Of a DNA stretch of 64,000 nucleotides, positions 30,202 to 61,014 are shown in pieces. Under the pieces are notes generated by a model. The model searched no databases. It was not told the DNA's origin and was given only the letters and a program-made list of their open reading frames with translations. This DNA comes from Pseudobdellovibrionaceae bacterium (GTDB lineage Bacteria; Bdellovibrionota; Bdellovibrionia; Bdellovibrionales; Bdellovibrionaceae): positions 1 to 64,000 of the forward strand of contig JABWCN010000013.1 of assembly GCA_013359135.1 (NCBI GenBank). The letters are read 5' to 3'. The position numbers and the translations under genes were made by a program. The stretch's first letter is position 1, and each line of letters opens with the position of its first letter.

Positions 30202-31299
30202 TTATTTTTTCCACTTTAATCTAGCGTAAACTGGCAAATGGTCCGAAACTCCTATTAACTTAATAGGGTCAAATCTCTCTGGTTTGCCATTTAAAAAATG
30301 AACAGATTTCTCTTGAATCACTTGAATACTAGATAAATCTACCTTCCAATTTTTTTTATTCAACGAACTACTAAAAAACAAGACATCCAAAAACTCCCAT
30401 TGCCCCTTATAATTATGCGACCCCAAACAATCAGCACAAGCATCAATGTGTGACACCAACCCCAAAGGACCTAAATACTTAGAGTACAATCCCTTTTTTT
30501 CATCTTCTCTTTTAGTAATATTAAAGTCTCCGCCAACAATAATAGCTTCAGATTTTCTAGCTTCAACCAAAGAACTTAAGTACTCAATCGCTTGAGATCT
30601 AAAATAGGTTGGGTTCCCTTGGGATGGAAAATGCACACCAAGAAAACGAATCTTATTATTTTCAGATAACGACATCTGCGGCAAGGTTACCACTACATCT
30701 AAAATACCTCTAGATTTTTTATTTTTACCAGTATCTCTCTTGCCTCTATATTTGAATGGAATTTCATGAAGTTCAGCTTTACCTTTTTGAGGAAACCGGC
30801 TTAAAAAAGCGACATCTATACCACGAGGGTCTTGTCCTTCTATAATCACAGCCGTTTTATATCCAGCAGAAGCAAGATACCTTTGGTTTAACATATCAAG
30901 AACATTTTTATTTTCAACCTCAACTAAAATTAAATTATCAGGTCCCTTGCCTTGCTCTACTGATAAAATAACCTTAGCTAGCTGACTCAATTTTCTATCT
31001 AAAACTTTTTCGTTCCAATCTAAGTTTAAACAATCTTTCCGATGTCTTGGTGACCTAATAGAAAAACATTTCCTTCGAAACTCATCACTCTGTTTTTCCT
31101 TTAAGGGTAAAAAAGTTTCATCTTCTTTGTGAAGATCATGCTTAGTATCAAATAAATTTTCTACATTAAATACCATCACTGAAAATTCAAAGTCTTGATC
31201 TGCTTTTAACACTGAAATACCAAGACACTGAATGGCCATCAAAAATAATATTTGCATCCTAAAATTTGATAAAATCTTATACCACGCTTCACACTTCAT
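30202..31299 (-). CDS. Exported endonuclease/exonuclease/phosphatase (EEP) family protein
   Basis: A 365-residue member of the EEP superfamily (DNase I, exonuclease III and sphingomyelinase-like enzymes). It shows an N-terminal signal sequence (about 15-33), then [11 protein letters not shown] with the conserved Asn45 and Glu47, VGGDFNI in the middle, and the C-terminal [11 protein letters not shown] with the catalytic His. The metal-binding and catalytic residues look intact, so an active hydrolase is likely. Being exported, it may act as an extracellular nuclease or phosphodiesterase. AGGGAG precedes the ATG. It is 26 bases after the pseudouridine synthase gene. Confidence 0.85.
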
Positions 31300-55847: not shown

Positions 55848-56954
55848 ATGTGCTTATTTAGATTTATTTTAATGTTTTTTTTCATTGTCGACTTAACCTT
55901 TGCAGATCTTTTAAAAAAGACAGATTCTATAGCTGTTGAATCACCAAAACAGAAAAAAGAAAGCTCTTGGCTAGGATTTCCATTGGTCTATTATACACCT
56001 GAGACTAAGCTAGCTCTGGGATTACTTTCACTAAATCGTTTCAGTAAAGAGGCCCAAGGAAAAACTTCAAACCTTCTTGCTGTTGGTTCCTATACAGAAA
56101 AGCAACAATCTATCTTAAGTCTGACACCAAGATTTTATTTCGACGAAGGACGCAAAGAATTATCTGGAAATTTATTTTATTCCTATTACCCTAATAAGTA
56201 TTTTGGACGTTCGGACTATCAAGTCAATTCTAATTCTCCAGAGAACTATACTGAGAATAACTTTAATTTAATGGCCAACTACACTCACCATATTTTTTCT
56301 TACTTTAATACTCTATGGACAGTTCGCACTGATAAGAAAAAGTTTATTAACTATCTAGAAAACGGACAGATAGCTGAAGAAGTTAACCGTTATGGACAAG
56401 AAATAAAAATTCATAGTCTATCTTTTTCTCTGGAGTGGGACTCTCGCGATTACCCCCAATCTCCCCTCTCTGGCGAGCACCATCGAGTGACGTTAACGAA
56501 AAGCCAAAACGAAAATAAAACTTTTAATGATTTCACAAAGAAAGAATTAGAACTAAAAAAATTTTTCTCCTTAGGTGACAAAAAAGTTTTAGCAGGGCAA
56601 TTTTACTTTTCTCAAGTAGAAGGGGAAGATATTCCTTTTTCTTTTTTAAGTTCTCTTGGAGGAAATCGACGTCTAAGGGGTTTTTATGAAAATCGTTTTT
56701 TAGACCGCTCTTTGACTCTTTTCCAACTGGAATGGCGAGAAGATTTTTCTGAAAAGTTCTCAAGAACTTTATTTTTAGCAAGCGGACAAGTTGCCAAGTA
56801 CAATGAAGACCTCCTTAAAAGTAAAAATCATATGGCTTTTGGAATTGGACTACACTATTTACTTGATCATGAGAACCGAACCAAAATCAGATTAGATCTT
56901 GGTTCTTCAGAAGAAGGATTAAGTATTTATTTTGTAACAGGTGAAGCTTTTTGA
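55848..56954 (+). CDS. Omp85/BamA-type surface-antigen barrel protein
   Basis: A 368-residue outer-membrane barrel with a signal peptide (FILMFFFIVDLTFA). The C-terminal barrel contains SLGGNRRLRGFYENRFLDRS, the Omp85 lid-loop motif (here RRLRGF), and ends in Phe (FVTGEAF). No POTRA domains precede it, so it is a POTRA-less member like the patatin-linked or orphan surface-antigen barrels. It is not BamA itself, which would be twice as long. Its end overlaps the convergent gene by 28 bases. Confidence 0.85.
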   Translation: MCLFRFILMFFFIVDLTFADLLKKTDSIAVESPKQKKESSWLGFPLVYYTPETKLALGLLSLNRFSKEAQGKTSNLLAVGSYTEKQQSILSLTPRFYFDEGRKELSGNLFYSYYPNKYFGRSDYQVNSNSPENYTENNFNLMANYTHHIFSYFNTLWTVRTDKKKFINYLENGQIAEEVNRYGQEIKIHSLSFSLEWDSRDYPQSPLSGEHHRVTLTKSQNENKTFNDFTKKELELKKFFSLGDKKVLAGQFYFSQVEGEDIPFSFLSSLGGNRRLRGFYENRFLDRSLTLFQLEWREDFSEKFSRTLFLASGQVAKYNEDLLKSKNHMAFGIGLHYLLDHENRTKIRLDLGSSEEGLSIYFVTGEAF

Positions 56955-59497
56955 TAATAACTTAAACAAGTGGCAATACGCCCCACATTCCTGTTAACTA
57001 GAGTTTTAATATTTGAAGTAGCTTCACTTATTGATACTCCCGTTTTACCAGCTAGCAACTCGGAAGCCCTTCTTGCAACAAACTGTTGTATAGTCTCTTT
57101 ACCAGAAACTCTTAGTCCAGCATCTTGGATTATTTTAATTATTTTTTCAATTGATATTCTGACTCGTTCTTGCGCGTGAACTTGTTGTTGAGCTACCCAG
57201 TTAGGTGCGATGACAGCTCTAACACCTCCCCTATTACTATCAGTAGCATCAACGACAAAATCAACGCCCCCAGTTCCTTCCCAAATTCTTGACCACCAGG
57301 TCAGATGGGCTCTTGGAATATCTTTTGCTTTTCCTGTAATCACCGTCGCCATCTCTTGAAGACCTTGTTTTTTTAGCTCTAGCTTAACTTGATTGATGTC
57401 TATACTTGGATCCATCTCTTTTCTTTGTAAAGCAACAACTTTTAAGTTATTTATTTTCAATTTACTTAAAATTCTATACATCTCTTTTTGTGCTACTTCA
57501 CCATCGGTAAATACCATTTCAATATTCTTATTTTCCAACGCTTTTTTAATAATAGCCTCACGGTAAAGTTCTGTATTCTTTCTGACATACTCCCATTCCT
57601 CAGCTGTCGCACCATCCATCCCAACAGGAACTGTTTTCAAAACAAGATAGTCATCTTTAAATCCTAGATCATTCATTAAACCATTTAAGTATTGCCCTCG
57701 TGCTCCAGTCAGAGCTCTTGACGTCAACCAATCATCAATTCCATGAGGGTCAGCCAGAATTAATACTTTGGAAGTTTCAAAACTCCCTCTATGAAAACCA
57801 AAAAGTCCTGTTCCTGGGTGAGTTTTTGTATTGAAGGCATCAATACCATAAGTTTCAAAACTTTTGTCGTTACCTTTACTGTCTATTTTGGTCTTATCAG
57901 CTTTTGGTTTAAACAACAAACTACGATCAATTGTATTCATCATCAGTTTTGCAATTTCATTCCCAGGTCCACGATCAAAAACATAACGTTCAGCTAAACT
58001 TCTTTGCCTGACTGACCATAAATCATCAGCACTTTTTGGTGATGAAGGCTGACTCCATTTTGCTTTTTTGACAGTTTGATAATCAAACTTGGCTTTTTCT
58101 CTGGTCCCAGCAACTATTGTTTGTTTATCAAGCCTAGAAGCGTCAGCCCTTGAAACACGACGGTCCTCTGGAGCTCCGAACTCAAAGTAACCTTGTCTAA
58201 TATCGGCTCGTCCATACTCGTAATCAAGTCCTTCACTCCACCGGTTTCTCATTTTTTTTCCGTAAGAATCTTGATCTGGTTCAATGAACCAACCTGTTTC
58301 TTCTTTCAACTTATTAAGTCTAGTAAAAGATTCTTTCAAAGCTCTAGATGCTTGCTCAGGAGTTAAACGACTCAACGAAGATGGATGTTGAGACATTGTG
58401 AAAGCAATATTTTCTTGAACTAATGTTCCATCAGAAAGTTTCAAACCTTTAAGAGAATTTGTTTTTACTCCATTAATTTCTACACTTTCAAGATCATAAC
58501 CTCCAAGTTGAGCTGCATTTAAAACCCCACTCCCATAAAGCCCACCGTCAGTAAAAACCATCATAGAGATAGCTCTTGCTCCAGCTTCTCTAAAAGTGTC
58601 CAAGGCTAATTTCATATCATTAGGATCTGAGTAATCTAATTTTTTCTTTGCATCTTTCTCATTTACAAGAAGTTGATAAATATCACGCCCTTCCTTATCT
58701 ATAGGTACTGCAACCTCATTATTACCTCCTGCATTTTCCATTTTAGTTTCTGGAACTCTTAATTTCTTTAACTTTTCGTCAGTTAACTTAGCTTGTACTT
58801 TAGCTCCTCTTGCAATCAGAAACTCTGCAAAAGCATCACGAGCAGCTCCTCCAAATAAAATAAAAAGCCTCATACTTTCTGGGTTATTTTTTATCATCCA
58901 CTCCCAAAACTCTTCCCTTTTTATAACTATCTCACTCTCTTTTCCATTAGCCATAAGCCAAAACTCATTATCCACATATGGCATCATTCTGATGACCTCT
59001 ACTCCTCTATCATTTTTTTCAATCACTGGATGATTTAAAGCTCCATACTGGCCTTTAATCGTAGATAAAAAAGCATTAGTTGTTGCGATACTTTGGTCAA
59101 CACCGAAATAATTACCAATACTTTGAACCCTTGCTCCAAAACCAGAAGTGCCAGGTTGCTTAGCCGCTTCAGCGATATGAGTTGCATCTTGTCCCACGAA
59201 CAAAATTTTCACAGCGTTAGGATCAAAAGATGTTCTAGTAAGCATCAATCCAAAAGTATAACGAAACTTTTGTTCATCCATCAATTCCTCTGACATCACC
59301 ATATACTCTGGAAGTTCCGCATATAAATCGACTAACTCTCTTCCCGCTTTAGTTTGAGGGTCAGGACCAGGGTTATACTCCCACTTTTCCTCCCCTTGCT
59401 CTGCCAGTAATTGAACAGGTAATGAAATTTGCAATGCAAGTAAGAGACTTAACATCTTTTTAATAAATGAAGATTTGATTTTTAAACGATGACTCAT
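56927..59497 (-). CDS. Exported protein with uracil-DNA-glycosylase-like motifs, two domains
   Basis: An 856-residue exported protein (signal peptide ending LPVQLLA). KILFVGQDATHIAEAAKQ (GQDATH at 102-107) matches motif A of family 1 uracil-DNA glycosylases (GQDPYH), and SQHPSSLSRLTPEQASRALK (HPSSLS at 371-376) matches motif B (HPSPLS). LFILFGGAARDAF lies between them. The Tyr of GQDPYH, which excludes thymine, is replaced by Thr here, and the spacing between motifs is about twice that of E. coli Ung. A second domain (about 590-760) begins SKVLILADPHGIDDWLTSRA and looks related. Export of such a fold is unusual, and its substrate is unknown. Confidence 0.65.
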   Translation of the reverse strand: MSHRLKIKSSFIKKMLSLLLALQISLPVQLLAEQGEEKWEYNPGPDPQTKAGRELVDLYAELPEYMVMSEELMDEQKFRYTFGLMLTRTSFDPNAVKILFVGQDATHIAEAAKQPGTSGFGARVQSIGNYFGVDQSIATTNAFLSTIKGQYGALNHPVIEKNDRGVEVIRMMPYVDNEFWLMANGKESEIVIKREEFWEWMIKNNPESMRLFILFGGAARDAFAEFLIARGAKVQAKLTDEKLKKLRVPETKMENAGGNNEVAVPIDKEGRDIYQLLVNEKDAKKKLDYSDPNDMKLALDTFREAGARAISMMVFTDGGLYGSGVLNAAQLGGYDLESVEINGVKTNSLKGLKLSDGTLVQENIAFTMSQHPSSLSRLTPEQASRALKESFTRLNKLKEETGWFIEPDQDSYGKKMRNRWSEGLDYEYGRADIRQGYFEFGAPEDRRVSRADASRLDKQTIVAGTREKAKFDYQTVKKAKWSQPSSPKSADDLWSVRQRSLAERYVFDRGPGNEIAKLMMNTIDRSLLFKPKADKTKIDSKGNDKSFETYGIDAFNTKTHPGTGLFGFHRGSFETSKVLILADPHGIDDWLTSRALTGARGQYLNGLMNDLGFKDDYLVLKTVPVGMDGATAEEWEYVRKNTELYREAIIKKALENKNIEMVFTDGEVAQKEMYRILSKLKINNLKVVALQRKEMDPSIDINQVKLELKKQGLQEMATVITGKAKDIPRAHLTWWSRIWEGTGGVDFVVDATDSNRGGVRAVIAPNWVAQQQVHAQERVRISIEKIIKIIQDAGLRVSGKETIQQFVARRASELLAGKTGVSISEATSNIKTLVNRNVGRIATCLSYYQKASPVTK

Positions 59498-59697: not shown

Positions 59698-61014
59698 ATG
59701 ATTTCAAGACGGAATTTCTTAAATTCAACAGGGAAAAAACTAGTAGCGTCCACAATAGGACTCAAATCTCTTTTTTCTTTTGCTCAGGGGGCTTCTTTAA
59801 ATACAAGTACAAGTGCCGCATTTATTTCTGTAATACAAGGTGACTGTTTTGATGGTTTTTCACAATTCTCAGTGCTCACTATTAACAGAAAAAATCTGAG
59901 ATTTTTTTTATTTAAAAACAATCAACTTATTGAAGAAATTCCAAGTCACATTCAAAAACACCCATCTTTTAATTCACGAATTGATAAACTCTTTGTAAAA
60001 GGCTTACAAACAGAAACTTATTATGAGCTTAGAATCATCGAAAATAATGCGGTAATTGATTCTCGTTTTTTTAAATCATTAAATTCTGATAAGCTCCAAT
60101 ACCGTATAGCACTTGTTTCATGTATGGATGCCAAACTTCATAAACCACAGATGTGGCAATCTTTATTACAACAACAAGCTGATCTCATCCTATTTATTGG
60201 CGATAGTGTCTATGCTGACGCTGAGACAAATGGACCAGCAAACGGCTTCCATTTGTGGAGAAGTTTTGCTAACTCTAGATTCACTTTAGACATTTACAAA
60301 TGGCGATACCTTGTACCTATTTTGTCTGTCTGGGATGACCATGATTTTGGACACGACAATTCTGGTAATTTTTATCCCTATATCAAAGAATCAACAATAA
60401 ATTTCAAAACTTTTTTTGCTCAAGACTATCAAGTTAGCCCTAACTTAACTCATGGTCCTGGGATTTCTTCAGCCTTCAAACTAGGCTCATTACTAATTAT
60501 TTTGCTTGATGGAAGAAGCTTTCGTCACCATCCAGGAACACAAGATTTATTTGGTATGTTTGGACTTAAACAAGAGACTTGGGTTTATCAAGTTATAAAA
60601 AACCATCCAGGTCCTATACTTTTGGTGAATGGTTCTCAATGGTTTTCAGATTCTGGTGTTGGAGAATCCTTTAATCATGACTATACAGAAAATTTTAAAC
60701 AATTTATAACTCATTTAAAATCTCTTAATAAAAAGATTTTATTCGCTTCTGGAGATGTTCATTTTTCAGAGCTCATTAGTATCCCTAAGAATATTCTTGG
60801 GTATCAAACCTATGAAATCACATCAAGTGCTATGCATAGTTTAACAGCACCAGGTATTCCACAGTTTTTTAAAACCAAGAATAGCTTTCTATCGACATGG
60901 AGACATAACTTTAATTTATTAGATTTTCGTACAACCTCATTTGGAAACCAGTTTTCTATTGCTTGTATGGGAGAATCAAATTCTGCCTTCTATAAGTATT
61001 CTTTTTGGTTATAA
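59698..61014 (+). CDS. PhoD-like alkaline phosphatase/phosphodiesterase, Tat-exported
   Basis: A 438-residue protein with a twin-arginine signal (SRRNFLNSTGKK). It has a domain of about 100 residues, then a PhoD-like metallophosphatase core. LALVSCMDAK-type start, LFIGDSVYADAETNG, WDDHDFGHDNSGNF, LLVNGSQWFSDSG and FASGDVHFSELI are all recognisable metal-site segments. It likely releases phosphate from phosphodiesters or phosphomonoesters outside the cytoplasm. It is divergent from the glycosylase-like gene (200 bases) and precedes the ParB-like gene. Confidence 0.9.
   Translation: MISRRNFLNSTGKKLVASTIGLKSLFSFAQGASLNTSTSAAFISVIQGDCFDGFSQFSVLTINRKNLRFFLFKNNQLIEEIPSHIQKHPSFNSRIDKLFVKGLQTETYYELRIIENNAVIDSRFFKSLNSDKLQYRIALVSCMDAKLHKPQMWQSLLQQQADLILFIGDSVYADAETNGPANGFHLWRSFANSRFTLDIYKWRYLVPILSVWDDHDFGHDNSGNFYPYIKESTINFKTFFAQDYQVSPNLTHGPGISSAFKLGSLLIILLDGRSFRHHPGTQDLFGMFGLKQETWVYQVIKNHPGPILLVNGSQWFSDSGVGESFNHDYTENFKQFITHLKSLNKKILFASGDVHFSELISIPKNILGYQTYEITSSAMHSLTAPGIPQFFKTKNSFLSTWRHNFNLLDFRTTSFGNQFSIACMGESNSAFYKYSFWL

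Follow-up and report, generated by a model that had tools for sequence, protein, structure and literature searches.

An exported, tandem uracil-DNA glycosylase-like protein in Bdellovibrionota and its linkage to other exported enzymes

The window, a stretch of 64,000 nucleotides from a contig of a Pseudobdellovibrionaceae bacterium, contains a gene for a protein that is predicted to be exported and that has two domains of the uracil-DNA glycosylase (UDG) fold. This protein is an exported, tandem version of the known UDG superfamily, rather than a new kind of protein. We consider it probable that it acts as a base N-glycosidase outside the cytoplasm, on nucleic acid from prey or from the environment, and that it is one of several exported enzymes whose genes cluster loosely. 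The textbook role of uracil-DNA glycosylases is DNA repair inside the cell, and we know of no UDG-type repair enzyme that works outside it. A search confined to the open-access literature yielded no description of a UDG that is secreted or periplasmic. If the active site is intact, a phylum-wide, exported and duplicated UDG would represent base-excision chemistry recruited for extracellular life. The features of the protein and of the linked genes, as located by computation, are listed in Table 1.

Table 1. Location of the UDG-like gene, its domains and motifs, and the linked exported genes. Positions are those of the window unless a locus is named.
Feature	Residues	Position	Strand	Basis
Gene, exported two-domain UDG-like protein		56927..59497	-	ORF and translation, homologues in the phylum
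Predicted Sec-type signal sequence	1-32	59402..59497	-	basic start, then hydrophobic segment
UDG-like domain 1	36-415	58253..59392	-	profile A4 vs BdiUng, AlphaFold2, Foldseek
Motif A, GQDATH	102-107	59177..59194	-	GQ invariant in 66/66, position 104 D/E
Asn141, corresponding to the Asn with which UDGs recognise the base	141	59075..59077	-	invariant in 66/66; aligns with VNT of BdiUng
Motif B, HPSSLS	371-376	58370..58387	-	His371-Pro372 in 66/66; directly after a core strand (model)
UDG-like domain 2	500-812	57062..58000	-	PF03167, profile A5, own AlphaFold2 model, Foldseek
Domain 2 motif A equivalent, LADPHGID	581-588	57734..57757	-	Asp583 in 66/66, aligns with Asp of QDPA in BdiUng
Lys621-Thr622, at the position of the domain 1 Asn	621-622	57632..57637	-	66-member alignment
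IPRAHL, proposed domain 2 counterpart of motif B	727-732	57302..57319	-	conservation of position 731
Exported endonuclease/exonuclease/phosphatase (EEP)-family protein		30202..31299	-	PF19580, E 1.4e-26
Exported or lipoprotein NADAR N-glycosidase loci		L028:12829-13497; L076:5155-5778; L084:5079-5768		
Exported amidohydrolase loci		L033:12663-14858; L045; L191-L197; L200		

The open reading frame starts with ATG and encodes 856 amino acids in 856 codons. Signal sequences were called with a crude hydropathy test rather than with a dedicated signal-peptide predictor. By this test, the N-terminus reached a hydropathy peak of 2.18 over 11 residues, and 45 of 48 family members had a signal-like N-terminus; a lipobox pattern was present in six members. 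The N-terminal sequences themselves were not conserved among the members. A signal peptide had been proposed in the earlier note, and a hydrophobic, signal-like segment indeed precedes the UDG fold.

Searches with the single sequence merely hinted at a UDG. The Pfam UDG family PF03167 matched domain 2 (approximately residues 570-680; E 1.3e-4) with 22.5 bits against a curated cut-off of 24.3, domain 1 matched PDB entry 5gn2 with an E-value of 0.006, and searches of NCBIfam and PHROGs returned no family. Entry 5gn2 is BdiUng (Blr0248) of Bradyrhizobium diazoefficiens. The family profiles settled the assignment. BdiUng was the sole PDB match of a 20-member family profile (E 1.3e-19), and it was matched significantly by the separate profiles of domain 1 (A4; E 4.3e-16) and domain 2 (A5; E 1.5e-9). 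A comparison of domain 1 with domain 2 by hhalign likewise gave a match, at a probability of 94% and an E-value of 1e-7.

The predicted structures agreed with these profiles. AlphaFold2 modelled the mature protein with a pLDDT of 93.9 and a pTM of 0.93, and domain 2 alone with values of 93.8 and 0.87. When the full model was compared with the PDB by Foldseek, the top match was BdiUng (E 5.7e-10, target-normalised TM-score 0.69), and 49 of the 50 matches listed were enzymes of the UDG superfamily. Domain 2 alone gave the same top match (E 1.0e-11, target-normalised TM-score 0.71), with UDG-superfamily enzymes in 50 of the 50 matches listed. In both cases BdiUng was followed by family 4 UDGs, UdgX, SMUG1 and TDG. 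Hence, both the full model and the model of domain 2 alone show the alpha/beta/alpha fold of UDGs. The earlier note had suspected such a fold, and a related second domain at about residues 590-760, from a comparison with family 1. Both domains were predicted as UDG folds with high confidence, the second by its own profile and its own model; the superfamily stood, whereas the nearest relative turned out to be BdiUng rather than family 1.

Residues G102, Q103, N141, G216, H371 and P372 in domain 1 were identical in all 66 aligned members, and position 104 was Asp in 43 and Glu in 23 of them. This invariance argues that the motifs did not arise by chance. In the secondary structure assigned to the model by DSSP, the first core strand is followed by motif A, Asn141 ends the second strand, Gly216 follows the third core strand and His371 follows the last one. 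The order of strands and motifs in the predicted model is thus the canonical layout of a UDG active site, and from this layout Asp104 and His371 would be expected to lie in a common site, the outcome that the earlier note had named as support for its reading. The positions given there for both motifs were exact. Motif A reads GQD[AG]TH or GQEGAQ and contains no Tyr in any member, in contrast to GQDPYH of family 1. The replacement of this Tyr by Thr, previously considered unusual, is less odd than it appeared, as BdiUng, the nearest solved relative, has Ala at this position (GQDPA). Motif B is HPSSLS in our protein, HP[ST]xLS in the main clade and HPG in the other clade, compared with HPSPLS in family 1. 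Furthermore, domain 1 holds a large insert. Since the acidic residue, Asn and His are kept in all 66 members, domain 1 is a putative catalytic domain.

Domain 2 differs at the corresponding positions. Position 621 was Lys in 36 members, Arg in 23, Ser in four and Asn in three, which implies that canonical uracil recognition is absent from domain 2 in most members. Position 731, within the motif that would lie in the domain 2 active site, was His in 43 and Asp in 21 of the 66 members. With Asp583 kept and the Asn lost, domain 2 may be a second site with a different base specificity, or a platform that binds nucleic acid.

By both profile and fold, BdiUng was the best match of the two domains. 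It shares with our protein a GQD motif A without Tyr and an NT after the second strand. In contrast, BdiUng is a single domain of 272 amino acids without a classical motif B, and no export signal of BdiUng is known to us, whereas our protein has two domains, the first of them with an insert, as well as an export signal and a clear HP[ST]xLS motif, with GQD[AG]T or GQEGA instead of GQDPA. Hence, it does not have the single-domain, GQDPA-type organisation of the BdiUng family. Family 1 Ung resembles it in a motif A that starts with GQD and in HPSPLS, which is close to HPSSLS, and the viral Ung 2j8x aligned at both motifs, although below significance. However, our protein lacks the Tyr of motif A, is exported and duplicated, and is overall nearer to BdiUng and family 4 in sequence and structure. 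The same genome also encodes an ordinary cytoplasmic family 1 Ung with the motifs GQDPYH and HPSPLS, and therefore the UDG-like gene does not represent the only housekeeping UDG there. Family 4 UDGs and UdgX were the next best fold matches after BdiUng, but motif A is not GE(A/G/Q)PG, and in place of the four cysteines of a 4Fe-4S cluster there is a single Cys (Cys844) in the 856 residues, and hence there is no Fe-S cluster of the family 4 type.

The distribution of the family in Bdellovibrionota is wide and patchy, with members in 81 of the 369 genomes and 51 of the 182 genera. An alignment-based scan of contigs yielded 41 named loci, mostly in metagenome assemblies of Bdellovibrionaceae, Bacteriovoracaceae, Halobacteriovoraceae and Oligoflexia. 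A scan of genome contigs with the single protein gave no match, because the family is divergent, and a tblastn search of plasmids with a BdiUng fragment gave no match either. Beyond Bdellovibrionota, the family was looked for by an exact-pattern scan of genome contigs only. Two clades can be distinguished, one with GQD[AG]TH...HP[ST]xLS, which includes the protein under study, and one with GQEGAQ...HPG. A very divergent member of 525 amino acids (L046:9438-11012, in G006) is without the region of the Asn motif and is possibly a degenerate copy. Carriers of the gene include G007 and G034, tentatively identified as P. exovorus JSS and Ca. B. qaytius, which are epibiotic predators (PMC11656739). 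In contrast, the gene was found in none of the listed genomes of g6, taken as the genus Bdellovibrio and including G189, and hence it is not required for predation in general.

The UDG-like gene was linked to other exported genes, a result that is new relative to the earlier note. The strongest association was with an exported NADAR/gp30.3-type protein that matches PF08010 and PF08719 and whose copies carry signal or lipoprotein sequences. It was present at strong scores in 110 of the 369 Bdellovibrionota genomes, comprising 73 of the 81 genomes with the UDG-like gene versus 37 of the 288 genomes without it (Fisher 1e-39, not corrected for phylogeny). Presence and absence of the two genes agreed perfectly within g3 (nine present, five absent), g1 and g112. 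In 10 genomes, against a chance expectation of 0.11, the NADAR gene lay within 2.5 kb of the UDG-like gene; the relative orientation of the pair varied. The window's own genome carries its NADAR gene on a different contig (G000:C63:1552-2175). To our knowledge, all NADARs known so far are intracellular antitoxins, housekeeping proteins or phage proteins, and a search confined to the open-access literature yielded no description of an exported NADAR in Bdellovibrio-type bacteria.

Members of the NADAR family remove ADP-ribose from guanine, and YbiA cleaves riboflavin intermediates (PMC11543638, PMC11125620). As in UDGs, the bond that NADAR, YbiA and gp30.3 N-glycosidases cleave is N-glycosidic, either of a base or of an ADP-ribosylated base (PMC11125620), but their fold is unrelated to that of our protein. 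A Glu and a Lys are important for catalysis by NADARs (PMC11543638), and the consensus of 41 exported copies (vEgxWQxmKYP) keeps catalytic-type Glu and Lys residues. At L149-L156 in g6 (Bdellovibrio), an exported NADAR gene is followed in conserved order by an aminotransferase-like gene and a gene for an exported protein of 770 amino acids; these neighbourhoods are without any UDG-like gene.

Two further families of exported proteins recurred near the UDG-like gene. The gene for the EEP-family nuclease lies 26 kb from it in the window, whereas in four other genomes a homologue separates the UDG-like gene from the NADAR gene, and in further genomes it neighbours one of the two. This nuclease occurs in 203 of the 369 genomes, and its presence alone therefore means little, whereas its position is informative. 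An exported amidohydrolase that resembles nucleobase and nucleoside deaminases (8-oxoguanine, guanine and deoxyadenosine deaminases) was found in 23 genomes; the UDG-like gene is present in 20 of these (Fisher 9e-12, likewise uncorrected for phylogeny), and the two genes adjoin each other in approximately 14 genomes if weaker homologues are counted. A small lipoprotein family (c3) often lies between the two. The linked genes adjoin the UDG-like gene in a minority of genomes only. Moreover, the amidohydrolase is absent from the window's own genome, which together with the NADAR gene on another contig implies a loose set rather than an operon.

From these features we infer the catalysis, the substrate and the biological role of the protein as follows. 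Judged by its sequence and predicted model, domain 1 probably functions as a base N-glycosidase. Asp104, which is replaced by Glu in one clade, would position the attacking water or stabilise the sugar cation, Asn141 would read the base and His371 would stabilise the leaving base. Its site of action would be the periplasm, the cell surface or the prey, and its substrate nucleic acid or fragments thereof; the exported nuclease, the NADAR-type N-glycosidase and the deaminase-like amidohydrolase would be its loosely clustered partners. Most simply, its role may be the breakdown or salvage of foreign nucleic acid, altered bases included. Uracil is rare in DNA, and thus it is not evident what a cell would gain by exporting a UDG, which counts against our main reading. 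Uracil, 5-hydroxymethyluracil and xanthine, which BdiUng accepts (summarised in PMC8307549), would fit deaminated nucleic acid as the substrate, and the linkage to NADAR would permit an ADP-ribosyl or nucleoside substrate as well.

Whether all four enzymes, the tandem UDG-type glycosylase, NADAR, nuclease and amidohydrolase, jointly form an extracytoplasmic base-processing pathway of Bdellovibrionota on nucleic acid from prey or the environment is more tentative, and we give it somewhat less than an even chance. If true, it would mean base-excision-like chemistry outside the cell, serving attack or feeding rather than repair. The linkage points to an undescribed extracellular system for the processing of nucleic acids in Bdellovibrionota, which are noted for their bacterial predators, and the linked genes offer a short list of candidates.

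Other explanations accommodate parts of these results. The strong linkage to NADAR-type N-glycosidases, and the Glu and Lys kept in the exported NADAR set, would suit an enzyme that cleaves small molecules or ADP-ribosylated nucleic acids rather than uracil in DNA and works together with NADAR. However, domain 1 retains the Asn typical of uracil recognition, and we know of no enzyme with a UDG fold that acts on such substrates, so this remains a minority reading, although one to be taken seriously. Rather unlikely, too, is an exported UDG fold that has turned into a non-catalytic binder of nucleic acid, for example a DNA-capture lipoprotein or a surface protein. The loss of the domain 2 Asn in most members, the tandem folds, the large insert of domain 1 and the lipobox of some members are consistent with binding, but a pure binder would not be expected to keep the three catalytic-type residues of domain 1 in 66 of 66 members across the phylum.

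The protein could also be a weapon that creates abasic sites in the DNA of the prey, which the linked nuclease then cuts. An exported glycosylase that adjoins an exported EEP-family nuclease, in a phylum rich in predators and with the tentative epibiotic predators G007 and G034 among the carriers, might suggest this. Yet normal prey DNA offers few substrate bases, a secretion route into the prey cytoplasm is purely hypothetical and Bdellovibrio proper, as represented by the listed g6 genomes, lacks the gene, which makes such a weapon improbable. Finally, all characterised UDGs known to us are intracellular, and an N-terminus could merely resemble a signal sequence in a cytoplasmic repair enzyme. 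It is very hard to reconcile this with the N-termini of 48 divergent members, of which 45 are signal-like while their sequences are unconserved, with the lipobox in several members and with linked genes that are also exported. An extracytoplasmic base N-glycosidase hence remains our preferred reading.

Several other neighbours of the UDG-like gene were observed. In the window, an Omp85-superfamily gene (55848-56954, + strand) converges on it with an overlap of 28 bases at the 3' end, and a PhoD-like phosphatase gene with the twin-arginine signal SRRNFL (59698-61014, + strand) diverges from it at approximately 200 bases from its start. Both were rejected as partners, as neither is among the recurrent neighbour families. 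MutY, found near some homologues, was likewise rejected as a functional partner, because it occurred there in one genus only and reflects shared synteny. Clade II UDG-like genes at L043, L198 and L201 adjoin a gene for an exported protein of 558-612 amino acids, which by eye resembles a clostripain-type (C11) peptidase.
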